DNA of 64,000 nt from Sphaerospermopsis torques-reginae ITEP-024 (GTDB lineage: Bacteria > Cyanobacteriota > Cyanobacteriia > Cyanobacteriales > Nostocaceae): NCBI RefSeq assembly GCF_019598945.1, contig NZ_CP080598.1, positions 4,712,001 through 4,776,000 on the forward strand, read 5' to 3'. The notes below the pieces were generated by a model. That model was not told the origin of the DNA. It worked only from the letters and a program-made list of their open reading frames with translations, and searched no databases. A program made the translations under genes and the position numbers. Shown piece by piece: positions 30,044-38,577 of this stretch (within the stretch, counting starts at the first letter, position 1; each line of letters begins with the position of its first letter).

Positions 30044-32842
30044 GTGCATAGTGTTAATAACTCAAAATCCGCACGCGAAATTTTGAATATCTCCAGATGG
30101 GCAATTAAATTTTCGTGGTTGACGGTGTGTTTTTGGATCGGGGTGACAGTAGCGGGTATTTTAGCTTTCAGTTCCCTCAAATACGCCCTATTCCCTGATA
30201 TAACTTTTCCCGTGGTGGTGATAAATGCTCAAGCACCACTAACTTCGGCTTTAGATACAGAAGAAAAGTTAACTAAACCAATAGAAGAAAGCCTCAAATC
30301 CTTGGCAGGTCTGGAAAATATCCGTTCTTCCAGCTATCCGGGGCAAACTGCTGTAAGCTTGCTGTTTACAGTGGGTACAAATTTAGAAACTTCTACGGAA
30401 AATACTACAACTGCACTCAAGGGTTTAAAATTGCCGGCAGGAGCTAATTATAAGATTATTCCTTTAAACCTGAATGAGTCATCAGTCATTAGTTATGCTA
30501 TTGAAAGCGAGTCCAGAAGTTTGGATGATTTGCAGAAATTGGCAGATGAGAAAATTGTACCTGCGATCGCCAAATTACCAGGAGTTCTCAAAGTCTCACT
30601 GCTCGGCGCTCCACCAAAATCACCTCCTCTCAATGCTACCAATGCCACTGCGGCTTTACCTCAAGGAGCAGGAAATTTAGTTAGATTTAATGGTCAAGAT
30701 GTACTAGCTTTTCAAGTCGTTAAACGTGGTGATGCTAACACTTTAGAAGTTGTCAGTCGTGTAGAACAGGAAATACAAAACCTGCGCTCTACTTTAAAAG
30801 ATGTCAAACTCACCCTAGCTGCTACCCAAGCAGAATATATCCGCCAAGCTACCAAGTCAACTATAGATGCGTTGATAGAAGCGATCATTTTGGCAATTGT
30901 CGTCATTTTCCCATTTTTATGGAGTTGGCGAGCGACTTTAATTTCTGCTTTGGCTATTCCCACATCTTTGTTAGCAACGTTTATTGTCATGGCCTTTTTT
31001 GGCTTTAACCTGGAAACTATTACGTTGTTAGCTTTGGCTTTGGTTATTGGTAGTGTGATTGATGATGCCATTATTGATGTGGAAAACATTTTACGGCACA
31101 TTGAAGACGGGCAAAGTCCCCGTGAAGCTGCACACTCAGCTACCGATGAAATTGGTTTAACAGTAGTTGCTACTACTGCTACTGCTGTGGCGGTTTTCTT
31201 ACCTATTGGTTTGATGGGTGGAGTCGTTGGGCAGTTTTTCAAGCCTTTTGGGATTACTGTTTCGGCTTCTTATATTGCTTCTACATTGGTGGCGCGAACT
31301 TTATCACCAGTTTTATCTATTTATTGGCTCAAACCAGTTAAGAAAAATTCCCATAACAAAGAATTGAACCACGAAGGGCGCAAAGAACACGAAGAAAAGA
31401 AGGTTTCAGAGGGTTCTTGGGTGGGTTTAGCAAATATTGGGGTTTATTTTACTCAAGCTTATCGCAATTTATTAGCTTGGTCTTTGAATCACCGAAAAAT
31501 AGTTATTGCTTTAGCTGTTCTCAGTTTTGTTGCTGGTATTGCGCTGACTCCATTTATTCCCAAGGGTTTTATTCCTAAGTTAGATCGGGGTGAATTTAAT
31601 ATTACTTATACTGCACCTTTGCCGAAAATCCATGATTTAGAAGCGTTACAGCAGTTAAGAAGCAGGGGAGCAGGACAGCAAGGGGGAAATAATTTCCCAG
31701 TCCCCAGTCCCCAGTCTCCAGTCCCCAGTCCCCAGTCCCCAATACCTATTCCTAACCCTCTCAATGATTCTTTGGAGGTGGCGAAAAAACTGGAAGCGGA
31801 GGTGAGAAAATACCCAGATGTGGAAACTGTGTTTACTACGGTTGGTTCTCGTGGAGGTGAACCAAATAAGGGTACTCTCTATGTGAAACTGAAAAAAGAC
31901 CGCACAATTAAAACCGCAGAATTACAAGATCAGTTGCGGCAAAGTTTGCCTAAACTTCCTGGTGTGTCTACCAGTGTGGAAGATATTCAATTTGTGGATA
32001 CTGGTGGAGAAAAACCTTTACAAATAGCACTTCGCGGTAATGATCTGAAAACTCTCCATGAAGCGGCTGAAAAAATTAAGGACCGCATTACTAAAATTCC
32101 TGGTTTTGCAGATGTGACGGTGACAGGTGAAAATAATACTCCAGGTCAGGTTTTGCAAATTGAACGACTGAACCAAGAACGGGTAGCTTATATCAGTGCT
32201 AACTTGGGTCAGGATTTAACTTTGGGTAATGCTACAGATAAAATTGTGGCGGAAGCTCAAGATATTTTACCTGCTGGTGTGACTATAGATTTAGGTGGAG
32301 ATTCTGCTCGACAAAATGAAGTTTTAAATAGTTTTATTTCGACTTTGATTTTATCGGCGTTGTGTATTATCGTCGTGTTGATGTTACTGTTCAAAAGTTG
32401 GGTAGATCCTTTGGTGATTGGTGCTTCTTTACCTTTAGCTGTGGTGGGAGCAATGTTAGCTTTACTCTTGACTAAGAGTGATTTTGGCATGATTTCTTTG
32501 ATTGGTTTTGTATTTTTGTTAGGACTTGCTAATAAAAATGCCATTTTGTTGGTAGATTACATTAATCAATTACGTCTCTCAGGTTTGGAACGCACGGAAG
32601 CTATTCTTAAAGCTGGTCCTGTGAGACTCAGACCGATTATGATTACTACTGTTTCTACTCTGTTGGGGATGTTACCTATCGCTTTAGGTTTTGGTGCGGG
32701 TTCTGAGTTGCGATCGCCTATGGCCGTTGCTATTGCTGGTGGTTTGATAACTTCTACTATTCTCAGTTTAATTGTTGTTCCTGTTGTCTATGCTATTTTA
32801 GATGATTGGTTTCCCAGAAAGAAGTTTGCAGTAAATAGGTGA
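30044..32842 (+). CDS. RND (AcrB/HAE1-type) efflux transporter
   Basis: A 932-residue inner-membrane RND pump. Start is GTG 30044; no closer ATG precedes the first helix. The layout is typical: TM1 at about 22-42, a large periplasmic loop, TM2-6, a central cytoplasmic linker, TM7 (IVIALAVLSFVAGIALT), a second loop, and TM8-12. Proton-relay residues are kept: the aspartate pair in IGSVIDDAIIDVEN (about 338-339) and the lysine in GLANKNAILLVDY (about 831). The closest relatives are HAE1 pumps of about 1,040 residues, so both porter loops are short. Two repeat-derived in-frame insertions occur at about residues 440-457 and 540-567. No membrane-fusion protein or TolC gene is adjacent. Confidence 0.88.
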   Translation: MHSVNNSKSAREILNISRWAIKFSWLTVCFWIGVTVAGILAFSSLKYALFPDITFPVVVINAQAPLTSALDTEEKLTKPIEESLKSLAGLENIRSSSYPGQTAVSLLFTVGTNLETSTENTTTALKGLKLPAGANYKIIPLNLNESSVISYAIESESRSLDDLQKLADEKIVPAIAKLPGVLKVSLLGAPPKSPPLNATNATAALPQGAGNLVRFNGQDVLAFQVVKRGDANTLEVVSRVEQEIQNLRSTLKDVKLTLAATQAEYIRQATKSTIDALIEAIILAIVVIFPFLWSWRATLISALAIPTSLLATFIVMAFFGFNLETITLLALALVIGSVIDDAIIDVENILRHIEDGQSPREAAHSATDEIGLTVVATTATAVAVFLPIGLMGGVVGQFFKPFGITVSASYIASTLVARTLSPVLSIYWLKPVKKNSHNKELNHEGRKEHEEKKVSEGSWVGLANIGVYFTQAYRNLLAWSLNHRKIVIALAVLSFVAGIALTPFIPKGFIPKLDRGEFNITYTAPLPKIHDLEALQQLRSRGAGQQGGNNFPVPSPQSPVPSPQSPIPIPNPLNDSLEVAKKLEAEVRKYPDVETVFTTVGSRGGEPNKGTLYVKLKKDRTIKTAELQDQLRQSLPKLPGVSTSVEDIQFVDTGGEKPLQIALRGNDLKTLHEAAEKIKDRITKIPGFADVTVTGENNTPGQVLQIERLNQERVAYISANLGQDLTLGNATDKIVAEAQDILPAGVTIDLGGDSARQNEVLNSFISTLILSALCIIVVLMLLFKSWVDPLVIGASLPLAVVGAMLALLLTKSDFGMISLIGFVFLLGLANKNAILLVDYINQLRLSGLERTEAILKAGPVRLRPIMITTVSTLLGMLPIALGFGAGSELRSPMAVAIAGGLITSTILSLIVVPVVYAILDDWFPRKKFAVNR

Positions 32843-32924
32843 CAGGTTACAGGTGACAGGTGACAGGTGACAGGTTACAGGTTACAGTGTTAGATCCTCG
32901 ATTTTTTCAAGAAGTCGGGGATCT
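32839..32924. repeat. STRR array plus AGATCC/GTCGGGGATCT stem-loop
   Basis: Six to seven GGTGACA/GGTTACA units (32840-32886) after the efflux stop, then a short stem-loop at 32892-32924 (AGATCCTCGATT ... AAGAAGTCGGGGATCT) of the family at 7475 and 61614. The hairpin could act as a terminator but lacks a clean T-run. Confidence 0.7.
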
Positions 32925-32930
32925 AATATG

Positions 32931-33258
32931 TGTTATGATTTTTATTGTCTGATAGCGTAGCGTGGCGTTAGCCATATCAGGATGTCCAGGATTTTAGGAT
33001 TTACAAGATTTACAGGATTTTAGTCGTTGCAATTTCTCAGGACATCTAAAGATTAAAAAAAATTCAAAATTAGAAAAAAAAATTCGATTTTTTGGGGTTC
33101 ACCCCGTTGACTTTTTCGCCTAGACTTGATATTCTGATAATGGGAATGCCTGCATTCAAAAAAATTTTGCTTACACTCCATTATATTAATATGACTATCT
33201 TACCACATCTGCCCCGCCCCGAACCCTAAAAAAAAGAAATTTTTTTCAAAAAAACTTA
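32931..33258. repeat. Long direct repeat flanking MmeI-like gene, copy A
   Basis: Non-coding block that recurs at 36956-37249 in the same orientation with only scattered changes. Shared landmarks in order: CAGGATGTCCAGGATTT, GCAATTTCTCAGGACATCTA, a short inverted repeat, TTGACT, TATTCTGATAATGGGAATGC, TTCAAAAAAATTTTGCTTAC, TCCATTATATTAATA, GACTATCTTACCACATCTGC and CCCCGCCCCGAACCCT. Copy A has an extra 24 bp small palindrome (TAGCGTAGCGTGGCGTTAGC and on, 32953-32976) that interrupts the CAGGAT element. Confidence 0.85.
33094..33135 (+). promoter_or_regulatory. Putative sigma70-type promoter with upstream inverted repeat (copy A)
   Basis: TTGACT at 33107-33112 and TATTCT at 33130-33135 with 17 bp between. 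The inverted repeat GGGGTTCACCCC (33094-33105) sits directly before the -35 box. In copy B the hexamers and the 17 bp spacing are identical although the spacer bases differ. It points at the MmeI-like gene and would give a leader of about 290 nt. Confidence 0.6.
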
Positions 33259-33429
33259 TAGATTTTCAAAATCTAAATAACTTAAACTTATGATTTGTGT
33301 AAAACCTAAGTTTTTTGCTACATCCTGTAAATCTTAAAATCCTGTAAATCTTAAAATCCTGGACATCCTGATGCAGACAAAAATCTTGTAAAATATTGAT
33401 TTTCATAACAATTAATATACCATTTTGCC

Positions 33430-36400
33430 ATGAAAAATGAAGATCGTCAACGAGTAGAAATATTCCTCAGAAAGTGGAAAGGTTCGCAGGGTAACGAAAG
33501 AGCAAATTATCAGAGTTTCTTTTTAGAACTTTGTGATGCTCTGACGGTAGAACGTCCAGCACCTAAAGGAAGTATACCAGGCGATCGCTATTGTTTTGAC
33601 AAAGACATCAAGATATTTAACAAAGATGGAGAAACTACCAACTTTGCAGACTTCTACAAAGAAGGACATTTTTTAATAGAAGCTAAACAAGGGGGAAATG
33701 CAAATAAACGGGGTACTGCTAAACGCGGAACAAAAACCTATGATATAGCGATGGAAAAAGCGTTTTATCAAGCTCAAAGTTATACACCTTTTCTACCAAG
33801 TAAACCACCCTTTTTAATTACCTGTGATATTGGTTCACATTTTGAAATTTGGATGAGTTTTAGTGGTAATTATGGTGGTTATGGTGCGCGGGAAAAAATT
33901 AATCTTGATCAGCTTTTAGATGAGAAAGTATTTAATCGTTTTGTTGCTATATTTAATGATCCGCAAAGTTTAAACCCGGAAAAATATCGAGCGCGGGTAA
34001 CAAGAGAAGTTGCGGATACCTTAGCTAAATTAGCGAAATGGTTAGAACAACAAGGACACCAACCGCAAGAAGTCGCAAATTTCCTGATGCGCTGCATTTT
34101 TACCATGTTTGCAGAAGATGTGAAATTATTGAAAGGGGATGTTTTTACTAAAGCTTTAAAAGAACGTTGGTTGGTTGAACCCAAGACATTTAAAACCCAG
34201 ATTGAAAGACTGTGGAAAGTCATGAATACTGGGGGAGAATTTAACTTTGATGAAATCCCCCAATTTAATGGTAGCTTTTTTGCTGATGCGACAGCTTTTG
34301 ATTTACCAAAAGAGCAATTAGAGGTTTTATATGAAGCTGCAAATAAAGATTGGACAGAGGTAGAACCGGCGATTTTTGGGACATTATTAGAAAGAGCTTT
34401 AGATAGTAAAGAACGTAAAAGTTTAGGAGCGCATTACACACCCCGATCCTATGTTGAACGGTTGGTGCGTCCGGTGGTAATAGAACCTTTAAGAGAAGAA
34501 TGGTTATTAGTTGAATCTGAGGTTGATCGGTTTTTAACGCTCAAGGAAAAACAGCAAAAACCGACAAAAGCACAAATAGAAAAAGCTGAAAAAGAGATTA
34601 GGTCATTTTTAGAGAAATTACAACAAATTCGCATTCTTGATCCTGCTTGTGGTTCGGGTAACTTTTTGTATGTGACGTTAGACTTGCTGAAAACATTGGA
34701 ACAAGAAGTACAGATGCGGTTGCTGGATGTTTTGGGAAAGGTGACAACGAATTTATTAGAGGAATTTGATCCGCGTTTAGCAGGAAGAAAACAGGTAAAC
34801 CCCTCACAATTTTTAGGGATTGAAATTAATCCTAGAGCGGCCGCTATTGCAGAGTTAGTAATTTGGATTGGTTATTTACAATGGCATTTTAAACGCTATG
34901 GAAGTACACCACCACCAGAACCGATTTTACAGGATTTTCATAATATTGAATTTCGGGATGCGGTGTTAGATTATGATGGGAAGGAGTTAGATATTGATAC
35001 TAAAACGGGTAAGGTGAAAACTCGTTGGGGTGGAAAAATGATCAAGCATCCTGTGACGGGTGAAGATGTTCCAGATGCGAGTGATCAAATTCCTATTTAT
35101 CGTTATCTTAATCCTCGTCCTGCTATATGGCCAGATGCAGATTATATTGTTTCTAATCCTCCTTTTATTGGTAAATTATATATGATTGAAAATTTAGGAG
35201 AAGGTTATGTAAAAACTATGCGTAATACTTATAAAAATGAAGTTCCAGATAGCTGTGATTATGTTATGTATTGGTGGTATAAGGCTGCAAAATTAACCGC
35301 TACCCAAAAAATTAACAGATTTGGTTTTGTTACCACTAATAGTATTACACAAACATTCAATCGGAGAGTAATTAGTGATGCTCTTACCTCAACACAACCA
35401 ATTCATTTAATATTTGCAATTCCAGATCATCCTTGGGTTGATACTCAAGATTCTGCATCTGTAAGAATTGCAATGACATCAGCAGCTTCAGGAAATGGAA
35501 TTGGCAAATTATCTTTAGTAACATTAGAGAAAATTAACCCGATGGATGGTATAGCTGAAATTGAAACTATTACCAGTCATGGTTTAATTCAATCAGATAT
35601 AAGAATTGGTATAGATATTGTTGGAGCTTTTTCATTAAAGTCTAACTATGGCCTTGCGGGGATGGGTGTCATGTTAGGAAATCGGGGGTTTTTAGTTGAT
35701 GATAGTTCTGAATTAGAAAATAATCACCCATGCTTACGCTCTATAATTAATGGCAATGATGTACTCAAAATTCCTCGAAATTTACAAGTCATAGACTTTT
35801 TTAATCTCAGTATAGCTGAAGCACAAAAGCAAGCTCCTAAAGCTTTTCAACAAATATTGTTAAAAGTCAAACCAGAACGAGATACGAATAATCGTAAAAC
35901 AAGAAAAGATAATTGGTGGTTGTTTGGGGAAAATATGCCTAAAACTCGTCAAGCTATAGCAGGTTTAGACCGTTATATTGTAACTGTAGAAACTTCAAAA
36001 CATCGTGTTTTTATTTTTGTAGATAGTCAGGTTTTAGCAGAACATAAGTTAGTTGTCATTGGATTAAGTGATGCTTATTATTTGGGTGTTTTATCTAGCT
36101 ATATTCATGTAATTTGGGCTTTAGCGTCTGGTTCTCAGCGTGGAGTAACTCCTGTTTATCCAAAATCTATTTGCTTTGATAAATTCCCTTTCCCAAATCC
36201 TACACCAGAACAGAAACAGAAAATCCGAGAATTAGGAGAAAGATTAGACTCCCACCGTAAACGAGTACAAACACAACATCCCGAAATCACAATTACCGGA
36301 ATGTATAACCTGCTAGAAAAACTCCGCAAAGGTGAAACATTTACCGCAGCAGATAAAGCATATAACAATAAAGCCTTAGTTTCCACCCTCAAACAAATTC

Positions 36401-36876
36401 ATGATGAATTAGATAACGCGGTTTTTGATGCTTATGGATGGCAAGATTTAAAAGATAATCAAAAAACAAAAGCCGAAATTGAAGAAATAATTTTAGAAAG
36501 GTTAGTTGCGCTCAATGCTGAACGTGCAGAAGAAGAACGTCATGGTATAATTCGCTGGTTGCGTCCTGAATATCAAGCACCAAAGGAAGTTACTCAACAG
36601 GTACTAACGGAAGTTATGGAAACAGAAGAAACTGTGATTATTCCCAGCGAACAAAAAACATTTCCCAAACAACCAAAAGACCAACTTGCAACTATCCGCG
36701 ACTTACTCCGCACCAATACCAGCGAGTGGACAGTGGAACAAATTGCTGCTCAATTTAAAAATGGTGGAAAATACAAAAATGCCATTGCTGAAAATGTGGA
36801 AAGATTAGAATGGTTTGGGATTTTAATCTGTAGAGAAACCGGAGCAACCAAACGCTGGCAATATGTGGAAATATAG
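33430..36876 (+). CDS. MmeI-like single-chain restriction-modification enzyme
   Basis: A 1148-residue type IIL/IIG-like enzyme. The N-terminus FLRKWKGSQGNERANYQSF matches MmeI-family starts. A PD-(D/E)XK nuclease site is seen as FADFYKEGHFLIEAKQG (D74, E84, K86). A helical spacer follows (to about 390). The gamma-class N6-adenine methyltransferase has motif I LDPACGSGNF (about 402-411) and motif IV VSNPPF (about 574-579). The target-recognition domain lies at about 680-920, with FDKFPFP just after. The C-terminal 80 residues (DLLRTNTSEWTVEQIAAQF) form an extra winged-helix-like module. Cleavage and single-strand methylation by one chain is usual for this family. Isolated gene, ATG start, flanked by direct repeats. 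Confidence 0.88.
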   Translation: MKNEDRQRVEIFLRKWKGSQGNERANYQSFFLELCDALTVERPAPKGSIPGDRYCFDKDIKIFNKDGETTNFADFYKEGHFLIEAKQGGNANKRGTAKRGTKTYDIAMEKAFYQAQSYTPFLPSKPPFLITCDIGSHFEIWMSFSGNYGGYGAREKINLDQLLDEKVFNRFVAIFNDPQSLNPEKYRARVTREVADTLAKLAKWLEQQGHQPQEVANFLMRCIFTMFAEDVKLLKGDVFTKALKERWLVEPKTFKTQIERLWKVMNTGGEFNFDEIPQFNGSFFADATAFDLPKEQLEVLYEAANKDWTEVEPAIFGTLLERALDSKERKSLGAHYTPRSYVERLVRPVVIEPLREEWLLVESEVDRFLTLKEKQQKPTKAQIEKAEKEIRSFLEKLQQIRILDPACGSGNFLYVTLDLLKTLEQEVQMRLLDVLGKVTTNLLEEFDPRLAGRKQVNPSQFLGIEINPRAAAIAELVIWIGYLQWHFKRYGSTPPPEPILQDFHNIEFRDAVLDYDGKELDIDTKTGKVKTRWGGKMIKHPVTGEDVPDASDQIPIYRYLNPRPAIWPDADYIVSNPPFIGKLYMIENLGEGYVKTMRNTYKNEVPDSCDYVMYWWYKAAKLTATQKINRFGFVTTNSITQTFNRRVISDALTSTQPIHLIFAIPDHPWVDTQDSASVRIAMTSAASGNGIGKLSLVTLEKINPMDGIAEIETITSHGLIQSDIRIGIDIVGAFSLKSNYGLAGMGVMLGNRGFLVDDSSELENNHPCLRSIINGNDVLKIPRNLQVIDFFNLSIAEAQKQAPKAFQQILLKVKPERDTNNRKTRKDNWWLFGENMPKTRQAIAGLDRYIVTVETSKHRVFIFVDSQVLAEHKLVVIGLSDAYYLGVLSSYIHVIWALASGSQRGVTPVYPKSICFDKFPFPNPTPEQKQKIRELGERLDSHRKRVQTQHPEITITGMYNLLEKLRKGETFTAADKAYNNKALVSTLKQIHDELDNAVFDAYGWQDLKDNQKTKAEIEEIILERLVALNAERAEEERHGIIRWLRPEYQAPKEVTQQVLTEVMETEETVIIPSEQKTFPKQPKDQLATIRDLLRTNTSEWTVEQIAAQFKNGGKYKNAIAENVERLEWFGILICRETGATKRWQYVEI

Positions 36877-36881
36877 GAAAA

Positions 36882-37249
36882 TGTCTGATAGCGTAGCGTG
36901 GCGTTAGCCATATCAGGATTTCCAGGATTTAAGGATTTACAGGCTGGTTGGTTTGTGGTATGATTTTATTGTCAGAATCAGGATGTCCAGGATTTAAGGA
37001 TTTACAGGATTTTAGTCGCTGCAATTTCTCAGGACATCTAAAGATTAAAAAAAAATTAAAAAATTAAAAAAAATTCGTTTTTTGGGATCTAAACCCGTTG
37101 ACTTTTTTTTCTAGACCTGATATTCTGATAATGGGAATGCGTGCCTTCAAAAAAATTTTGCTTACATTCCATTATATTAATAAGACTATCTTACCACATC
37201 TGCCCCGCCCCGAACCCTGAAAAAACAAAATTTTTTTCAATTTTTCTTA
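36882..37249. repeat. Long direct repeat flanking MmeI-like gene, copy B
   Basis: Begins six bases after the enzyme's stop codon. 36882-36940 is a CAGGAT element carrying the same 24 bp small palindrome as copy A (TAGCGTAGCGTGGCGTTAGC and on). 36956-37249 is the long repeat itself, here with an uninterrupted CAGGAT element (TGTCAGAATCAGGATGTCCA). Thus the small palindrome is inserted at different places in the two copies. Confidence 0.85.
37084..37126 (+). promoter_or_regulatory. Putative sigma70-type promoter (copy B)
   Basis: TTGACT at 37098-37103 and TATTCT at 37121-37126, 17 bp apart. The preceding inverted repeat is GGGATCTAAACCC (37084-37096), a different sequence from copy A but still able to pair. 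It points at hpnA, 450 bp downstream. Confidence 0.55.
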
Positions 37250-37353
37250 TCAAAAATCAAGAATCAATAAACTAAACTTATTAAATATAGAAAGTGCCTG
37301 TATTTTTTGAGGATAAATCCTGTAAATTTGGGAGATTCCAATTTTGCATAAAG

Positions 37354-37534
37354 AAACGCAGCCACACCAAAAACTTTCTGAAACCCTCTTACCTTTGTGT
37401 CCTTTGCACGCCAGTTGCTACAAGTCGGCAGAGCCGCCCAACGCACTGGCTCGCCTTTGCGGTTCAATCATATCAATCCTTGGATCATTTTATTTCCCCA
37501 GATAAAAACAAATTTACACATTTGGGATGCTCCC
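37354..37534. repeat. About 138 bp dispersed repeat with nested 46 bp insertion
   Basis: First of three copies (others 42158-42295, 47925-48060), all plus orientation. Landmarks: ACGCAGCCACACCAAAAACT, CTCTTACCTTTGTGTCCTTT, GCGGTTCAATCATATCA, ATTTACACATTTGGGATGCT. Here the core is split at about 37408-37453 by an insert whose ends GCCAGT and ACTGGC are inverted. Confidence 0.75.
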
Positions 37535-37578
37535 CTGAAAATCCTGATTCTGACAATATTAAAATAGCATATTGAGGA

Positions 37579-38577
37579 GTGAGAGGTTATTTAATGCGGG
37601 CTTTTGTGACTGGTGGTACAGGATTTGTAGGTTCTCATGTGGTGCGATCGCTGTTACAAGAAGGATATAAAGTTACAGCATTAGTACGTGGAAGTAGCAA
37701 CCTGGGAAATCTGCGAGGATTAGAAATAGATATAGTCAAAGGTGATTTAAATGACCCGCATATCTGGAAACAGATGCAAGGTTGTAATTATCTTTTTCAT
37801 GTAGCTGCCCATTATTCCCTATGGCAAAAAGATCGGGATTTACTGTATCGTCATAATGTGGAAGGTACACGGAATATTTTAACAGCAGCGCAAAAAGCCG
37901 GAATTGAACGTACAGTTTATACCAGTTCTGTAGCAGCTATAGGAGTAGGAAAATCTGGTCAAGTTGTGGATGAAACTCATCAGAGTCCTGTAGAGAAATT
38001 AGTGGGAGACTATAAAAAGTCTAAATTTTTGGCTGAACAAGAAGCAAAGGAAGCTGCAAAACAAGGTCAAGATATAGTGATAGTTAATCCTAGCAGTCCT
38101 ATTGGACCATTGGATATCAAACCCACACCCACCGGTGATATTATTCTGCGGTTTTTGCGGCGACAAATGCCGGCTTATGTGGATACAGGTTTAAACTTTA
38201 TTGATGTGCGAGATGTAGCGAGAGGACATTTACTAGCTTTGGAAAAAGGAAAAAGGGGCGATCGCTATATCTTAGGAAATCAAAATCTCAGTCTCAAACA
38301 ACTGCTAGAAATACTATCCGACATCACAGGATTAAAAGCACCGCAAATATCAGTTCCCGCTTTTTTACCATTGAGTGTTGCTTGGATAGAAGAGAAAATT
38401 CTTGCACTGATAGGGAAAACACCCACAGTTCCTATAGATGGTGTTCGCATGGCACAGCAACCAATGTATTATGATGCTTCCAAGGCCATCCGCGAACTTA
38501 GTCTACCTCAGTCTTCTTTGAAGGTAGCACTCAAAGACGCTGTTGATTGGTTTGTTTCTAATGGTTATGTCAAATAA
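37579..38577 (+). CDS. hpnA: Hopanoid-associated sugar epimerase
   Basis: NAD(P)-dependent short-chain/extended sugar epimerase of the HpnA family. Rossmann start RAFVTGGTGFVGSHVVRSLL (20), catalytic region YTSSVAAIG followed by DYKKSKFLAE (YxxxK), NPSSPIGP and the C-terminal LPQSSLKVALKDAVDW. GTG 37579 (332 residues, preceded by GAGGAG) and ATG 37594 (preceded by GAGAGG) are both possible; the protein proper begins at the ATG. In hopanoid producers this gene lies next to hpnH, as here (67 bp away), and is thought to act in side-chain maturation of hopanoids. Exact substrate unknown. Confidence 0.88.
   Translation: MRGYLMRAFVTGGTGFVGSHVVRSLLQEGYKVTALVRGSSNLGNLRGLEIDIVKGDLNDPHIWKQMQGCNYLFHVAAHYSLWQKDRDLLYRHNVEGTRNILTAAQKAGIERTVYTSSVAAIGVGKSGQVVDETHQSPVEKLVGDYKKSKFLAEQEAKEAAKQGQDIVIVNPSSPIGPLDIKPTPTGDIILRFLRRQMPAYVDTGLNFIDVRDVARGHLLALEKGKRGDRYILGNQNLSLKQLLEILSDITGLKAPQISVPAFLPLSVAWIEEKILALIGKTPTVPIDGVRMAQQPMYYDASKAIRELSLPQSSLKVALKDAVDWFVSNGYVK

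Follow-up and report, generated by a model that had tools for sequence, protein, structure and literature searches.

The window analysed here, the whole stretch of 64,000 nucleotides from Sphaerospermopsis torques-reginae ITEP-024 (contig NZ_CP080598.1, positions 4,712,001 to 4,776,000), carries a gene for an MmeI-like type IIG restriction-modification enzyme between two direct copies, A and B, of a repeat element of about 230 bp, which we call EL. Judged from its sequence, EL is a conserved regulatory unit rather than debris and is not tied to a single gene; it consists of two predicted promoters placed face-to-face around a palindrome of about 48 bp. Several genes are found at such EL spots, the MmeI-like gene among them. 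We consider it probable that EL is a self-contained regulatory repeat and that recombination between its direct copies would lead to gain, loss or swapping of the gene between them. The interpretation offered in an earlier note on this DNA, namely that the enzyme gene may have arrived with, or been expanded by, a repeat of about 300 bp carrying a selected promoter and leader, is partly supported.

Anatomy and conservation of EL

The repeat itself is real: positions 32976-33290 (A) and 36970-37280 (B) agree in 272 of 321 alignment columns (84.7% identity). Its extent had been overstated, however, as the first ~60 bases belong to a separate dispersed repeat (DR), and 91 of the 94 matches in the organism's own genome cover only the left part of the query. 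The EL core of about 230 bp, which is distinct from the DR at the left end of both copies, occupies 33053-33285 in A and 37045-37275 in B, both on the top strand (nhmmer scores of 192 bits over 33053-33269, with the edges of A set at the repeat boundary, and 190 bits over 37045-37272, respectively). With copy B as the query, the own genome returns copy A (E 3.4e-94, well outside chance) and, located elsewhere beside a putative PhoH-like gene, a third copy with 79% identity, for a total of three.

Both window copies keep the top-strand promoter TTGACT-N17-TATTCT (33107-33135 in A and 37098-37126 in B), with boxes, spacing and coordinates as earlier claimed, and TTGACT-N17-TANNNT is found in 36 of 39 full-length EL copies, the other three having TTGATT or TTTACT. 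Facing this promoter, on the bottom strand, is a predicted extended -10, TGGTAAGAT (33197-33205 and 37188-37196), which the earlier note had missed and which is new here. The conservation and motif work rests on a selection of 32 full-length copies that excludes the uvrB-type and array-type copies and most tandem duplicates; within this set TGNTANNNT is present on the bottom strand in all 32 copies and TGGTANNNT in 30, and the latter occurs anywhere in 10% of mononucleotide-shuffled copies. We read the two promoters as facing because TACCAC, seen on the other strand, belongs to the extended -10. Between them lies the central palindrome, ATAATGGG...CCATTAT in copy A (33137-33184, recognized from conservation, covariation and alignment) and at 37128-37175 in copy B (from the A-B alignment), which has no strand and takes the general form ATAATGGGAAT...CCATTAT, and A/T tracts stand at both ends. 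Some copies from other families show, by eye, the same plan, with TTGAC pointing inward on each side in the loci L098 and L088.

Majority fractions over the 32 copies reach 0.99 for TACCAC, 0.98 for the -35 box and 0.95 for AACCC; they are 0.88 for the -10 box, 0.88 and 0.85 for the palindrome arms, 0.87 for the palindrome middle and 0.88 for the 3' A/T tract, and drop to 0.72 in the spacer, 0.66 in the inverted repeat ahead of the -35 box, 0.65 in the 5' A/T tract and 0.63 in the C-rich stretch. The palindrome pairs covary above shuffles (1/500 on two measures) and above slid controls, and 6 of the 13 pairs keep a single form in at least 29 of the 32 copies, as a protein-binding site would likewise give. 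Most of EL is, moreover, self-complementary in part, and nhmmer scores matches to the opposite strand of many copies too. In the mechanism that we favor, both promoters would fire, the palindrome would be the site of a regulator and overlap both start regions, and short opposing transcripts would result.

Two smaller features that had been described as kept in both copies are indeed common to A and B but vary more widely among relatives. The short inverted repeat 5' of the -35 box (GGGGTTCACCCC at 33094-33105 and GGGATCTAAACCC at 37084-37096, from the A-B alignment) is not universal, with 66.9% of cells paired over the 32 copies, and it scored better with its partner slid one column, so that its register is uncertain. 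The C-rich stretch CCCCGCCCCGAACCCT (33212-33227 and 37203-37218) is similarly variable except for its AACCC. A HetR-bound promoter is described in PMC4192349 as requiring GGGnnnnnCCC upstream; read at the -35 column, this pattern fits only 9 of the 32 copies (copy A, not copy B), and a HetR operator was rejected on that count. The inverted repeat before the -35 box in two relatives, G001 and G307 (G and L numbers denote genomes and loci of our set), is identical to the hetP-type core GGGGTCTAACCCC.

The earlier note had also proposed selection for a regulated transcript or small RNA. The promoter part of that claim holds (the -35 box is far more constant than the spacer), while a structured RNA was rejected: RNAalifold gives 0 consensus pairs for the EL copies, RNA folding is no better than that of shuffles (z of -0.21 and -0.57), folding as DNA gives a z of -1.45 with 17 of 200 shuffles equally good, and Rfam yields no EL match up to E 1. 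These results also bear on the possibility that EL is a family of small-RNA genes in arrays, similar to NsiR1, whose top-strand RNA of about 100 nt would end in the 3' A/T tract and act on mRNAs. NsiR1 is known from cyanobacteria as direct tandem repeats of short units that bear a promoter, and EL units are likewise short, promoter-bearing and found in direct tandem repeats; the exact promoter spacing in 36 of 39 copies, the arrays in G283 and Oscillatoria and the lack of a fixed direction relative to distinct next genes (see below) fit such a family as well. Yet, in addition to the folding and Rfam results, the stretch past the palindrome is variable except for the opposing -10 and AACCC, and EL differs from NsiR1 (judged by the biology of the latter) in its opposing promoter, its central palindrome and its lack of conserved RNA structure, as well as in occupying many sites and reaching genera such as Microcystis and Oscillatoria. 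Hence, we regard the small-RNA family as a doubtful explanation.

Facing promoters are also a feature of type I toxin-antitoxin loci, for which fst RNAI-RNAII and BsrG-SR4 are presented as examples in PMC3874152, and EL resembles these in having two promoters (predicted, from sequence only) facing over a short interval. EL could accordingly encode a short peptide mRNA and an antisense RNA, in the manner of fst RNAI-RNAII: a 29-codon frame starts at 33140 in copy A and 37131 in copy B, an ATG stands at that column in 30 of the 32 copies, and the frame is open for at least 20 codons in 18 of them. However, the frame falls short of 20 codons in the remaining 14 copies, 13 of which have at most 5 codons, it carries no codon-position signal (0.853, 0.853 and 0.832), and the ATG follows the -10 box by 4 bases, leaving no space for a ribosome site. 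The small peptide was rejected on the short frames and the missing codon signal, and with no conserved peptide in EL, unlike in the known loci, a toxin-antitoxin pair is very improbable.

Proposed exchange at the RND-hpnA site and the MmeI-like gene

The names RND, hpnA, hpnH, PhoH and UvrB used here are those that we presume from reading the sequences. The site between the RND and hpnA genes is found in several states among relatives. The two genes are ~50 bp apart or abutting, with no EL between them, in G316 and G405 (hpnA 80-81% identical), and G310 (hpnA 93%) likewise has no EL in the gap and has a P450 gene there. One EL with no frame of 80 codons is found in G182 and G364, one EL with a 175-aa frame in G241, EL-EL in G385, EL-MmeI-EL in the window, and one EL with GmrSD and HEPN genes in G001 and G307. 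The flanks vary too: G169 has RND-EL-MmeI-EL followed by a different right neighbour; hpnA has another left neighbour in G334 and G442 (EL-MmeI-EL-EL) and in G443 (EL with GmrSD/HEPN); and ExbB genes are followed by EL, MmeI, P450 and hpnA in G379, by a broken MmeI, EL and hpnA in G287, and by EL, a DUF4114 gene and hpnA in G337. That is, as these arrangements read, the flanks switch at the EL unit, as seen with ExbB in the last three genomes. Recombination at EL is proposed because the copies form direct repeats 200-300 bp long; crossing-over by homology between them would duplicate EL into arrays, join new flanks, and insert or remove a gene. Recombination between A and B would drop the MmeI-like gene and leave the single-EL state of two relatives, although that state could equally precede insertion.

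That the gene is associated with the repeat unit, as earlier suggested, was borne out among 11 close MmeI relatives, including the window's own (full genes 76-80% identical to the window's; partial in G257 and G287, with two G257 contigs carrying MmeI parts treated as one gene). A full EL lies directly upstream in 8 of the 11 (window, G334, G169, G379, G143, G442, G444 and G257) and a right-end remnant in two more (G400 and G112), with no EL upstream of the broken gene in G287. Directly downstream, EL is found in 6 of the 11 (window, G334, G169, G442, G257 and G287) and is absent in four, and the G444 sequence ends at a contig end. In five genomes with more distant MmeI relatives (~60%), no EL lies closer to the gene than about 1.5 kb. 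The broken gene of G287 (L053, 9335-10708) lies in pieces beside an EL; it is mostly 89-99% identical to the window protein, with one stretch at 46%.

The origin of the window pair can be read from a linker immediately left of EL (GTCGTTGCAATTTCTCAGGACATCTAAAGA at 33023-33052 by copy A and GTCGCTGCAATTTCTCAGGACATCTAAAGA at 37015-37044 by copy B, both on the top strand, the latter from the linker search). Of the 37 EL copies tested, 10 have this linker beside them, and every one of the 10 belongs to the RND|hpnA lineage: the window (two), G001, G307, G364, G385 (two), G169, G400 and G287, with G307, G364 and G385 counted only when 3-4 differences are allowed; copies at other sites, and other copies of the RND|hpnA lineage, are without it. 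The window pair is, on this sequence evidence, of local origin, by duplication or by one copy having been copied onto the other, because both copies carry the linker of the RND|hpnA lineage. The copies on either side of MmeI differ in left flank in G169, G334 and G442, and therefore the pair has more than one history.

Restriction-modification genes are known to insert with a long target duplication (Nobusato 2000, as cited in PMC3031569), and an R-M gene between long direct repeats, with one copy at a gene-free site, is what the window site and its relatives have in common with such insertion. If A and B were a target duplication of this kind, a single copy would be expected at gene-free sites, and this was found in G182 and G364, in addition to the linker that both window copies share. 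In contrast, G316, G405 and G310 have none, and gene-free sites without the repeat are what the earlier note had named as speaking against its own reading. Further, EL forms a dispersed family, has predicted promoters of its own and is present at other sites without MmeI, arrays exist without any gene, A and B are 15% different, and the flanks in G169, G334 and G442 differ as described above. We thus find a target duplication unlikely. The same source, PMC3031569, describes restriction-modification genes between direct insertion sequence (IS) copies, where, as here, direct copies of a dispersed repeat flank the gene and amplification by unequal crossing-over is possible; EL, unlike an IS, is ~230 bp long and without a transposase gene.

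EL could also have spread as a non-autonomous transposable element of the miniature inverted-repeat (MITE) type, with the transposase acting in trans. It is dispersed and intergenic, with partial self-complementarity along most of the element, the RND-hpnA gap exists without EL in G316 and G405, and a related cyanobacterium, Anabaena sp. 90, is given in PMC3542288 as carrying 147 complete or partial type II MITEs, which EL resembles in being short, dispersed and mostly intergenic. However, no terminal inverted repeats were seen for EL, although one of the MITEs listed for that genome might conceivably be EL or DR; the flanks compared have no clear terminal repeats or target duplications, with those of RND|hpnA being too diverged to define junctions. 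Copies are also few per genome (three in the own genome), and the five uvrB-site copies in the EL tree, which left out one duplicate row, form one clade (100/100), which points to inheritance. A MITE is hence distinctly unlikely.

In the window, the order is RND, forward DR, linker, EL-A, reverse DR, MmeI-like gene, two forward DRs, linker, EL-B, reverse DR remnant and hpnA. The putative RND-type efflux gene (30044-32842, top strand, stop at 32842; open reading frame list) belongs to family F4, common to relatives, and the putative hpnA (37594-38577, top strand; the list has an upstream GTG start at 37579) has matches in 76 of 99 family genomes. The MmeI-like gene is an open frame of 1148 aa (33430-36876, top strand). 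Its protein shows Pfam MmeI_N, MmeI_hel and MmeI_Mtase above cut-off, MmeI_TRD slightly under it (25.6 bits vs. 27) and a PADLOC call of REase_MTase_IIG at 1360.5 bits, and EAK, DPACGSGNF and NPPF are read in it as putative motifs; by domain content it is a type IIG restriction-modification protein, with predicted cutting and methylation activity. Contrary to what had been stated, the copies do not abut this gene: ~145 bp separate the end of EL-A from the start codon and ~170 bp the stop from the start of EL-B, and DR copies lie in both gaps. The DRs, of the CAGGATTTACAGGATT type, are placed by repeat alignment at 32945-33022 (forward, with further genomic copies), 33321-33380 (reverse), 36882-36941 (forward, 97% identical to 32946-33005) and 36969-37014 (forward), and by flank comparison at 37534-37560 (reverse remnant). 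About 90 DR matches are found in the genome, frequently arranged in inverted pairs with a few hundred bases between the partners, and DR looks like a repeat family of its own; inverted DR copies bracket EL at the window site, not at most other sites tested. A palindromic repeat, GATCCTCGATTTTTTCAAGAAGTCGGGGATCTAA, lies 3' of the RND gene at 32893-32926, with related stretches in the same gap of G001, G182, G364 and others, and ~200 bp of other sequence (37330-37530) separates two reverse-DR remnants 5' of hpnA.

Other cargo, neighbours and distribution

EL copies also accompany other genes. In G247 a sulfatase gene and that of its activating enzyme lie between two copies (EL, sulfatase, FGE, EL), and in G283 a gene resembling RHH antitoxins (21.4 bits, below the family cut-off) lies inside an array of EL copies. 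The earlier note had asked whether the repeat stands singly at empty sites or paired around different defence genes; single copies where the gene is absent and pairs around different genes were both found, but a platform for defence genes only was rejected, given the sulfatase-FGE pair and ordinary neighbours (QueC, ExbB and methyltransferase genes). PADLOC assigned the GmrSD gene as NsnA-like and the F2 ATPase as PbeC/DndD, with no call for HEPN, ParE, ParD, DUF29, sulfatase, FGE, RHH and one 157-aa protein. EL cores or palindromes stand about 290-420 bases upstream of a PbeC/DndD-like ATPase gene at L080, L094 and L096, in several genera.

The G283 array has 12 copies in a row, one of them partial and most in units of ~494 bp; this small genome has rows of EL-bearing units of ~490-510 bp at L075 (6112-12980) and L074 (8463-10869). 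Three copies in G202 are spaced ~325 bp apart, and Oscillatoria PCC 10802 has 13 weak EL matches in a row, about 235-320 bp apart. Six ELs consist of the right part only (L141 9490-9570, L144 3445-3507, L164 7760-7864, L171 5099-5217 and 7557-7651, and L174 8096-8180) and start within profile positions 124-163, in the palindrome right arm or beyond; breakpoints may favor the right-arm region, and a detection bias is also conceivable.

Counted by copy, the next gene runs in the same direction as EL in 42 of 68 cases and opposite in 26, with 27 of the 42 being inherited uvrB, hpnA and MmeI sites; counted by distinct gene (own tally), 17 run in the same and 20 in the opposite direction. The directions are mixed, and therefore EL is not just a promoter of the adjacent gene. 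At the putative uvrB of 10 genomes (L049, L058, L064, L066, L067, L069, L070, L168, L169 and L173), a variant of EL has its end about 55-70 bp upstream of the gene and always points at it, and much of the sequence to the start codon is conserved in the seven aligned; this variant is a possible candidate for a uvrB promoter.

Among the 388 genomes of the order, 45 carry EL matches (E <= 0.001, some short; at most two candidates scored per genome), as do 33 of 99 family genomes (E <= 0.01) and 16 of 16 genomes of G169's genus (E <= 1e-6), with several of the 45 and 33 resting on matches of 22-60 bases that may reflect chance or the A/T tract. A strict palindrome pattern was found in 17 stretches among 84,980 genomes, all with cyanobacterial titles (including Oscillatoria, Microcystis, Hyella, Anabaena, Aphanizomenon and Tolypothrix); it was absent from the viral contigs searched, and phage and plasmid records gave no EL match at E 1e-5. 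The titles and abstract openings listed for open-licence papers name no such element. In its broadest form, EL might be a portable, cyanobacterium-specific unit with facing promoters on one palindromic operator, phylum-wide and arrayed, serving as a platform where recombination between repeats exchanges single-gene cassettes, such as the restriction enzyme, the sulfatase with its activator and toxin-antitoxin genes, under the same regulator, a reading that we hold to be rather doubtful.

Weight of the evidence and significance

Several points weigh against EL as a regulatory repeat that exchanges genes by recombination. Recombination is inferred from end states, and the gain and loss of MmeI come without an order on a species tree. 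The copies are homologous, with 20 in the profile, so that copy counts are not independent events, and resolution in the EL tree is poor, with 9 of its 36 inner branches starred. Since A and B are 15% different, exchange between them was not recent; the single copy of G182 is without the linker, and only one EL stands beside the gene in G001, G307, G443, G379 and G143. As for the predicted regulatory plan, the -35 of the own genome's third copy is TTTACT, the 3' A/T tract (0.88) and the palindrome middle (0.87) vary no more than the arms, with conservation thus extending beyond the promoter boxes, and EL may act as a promoter for its neighbour at the uvrB, hpnA and MmeI sites.

EL is nonetheless sharply defined by TTGACT-N17-TANNNT, the palindrome and TGGTANNNT on the other strand. 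If EL is indeed a self-contained regulatory repeat that supports gene exchange, it would bear both on how small defence genes that bring no transposase or integrase are swapped at fixed chromosomal spots and on the purpose of facing promoters that several cyanobacterial families have conserved.

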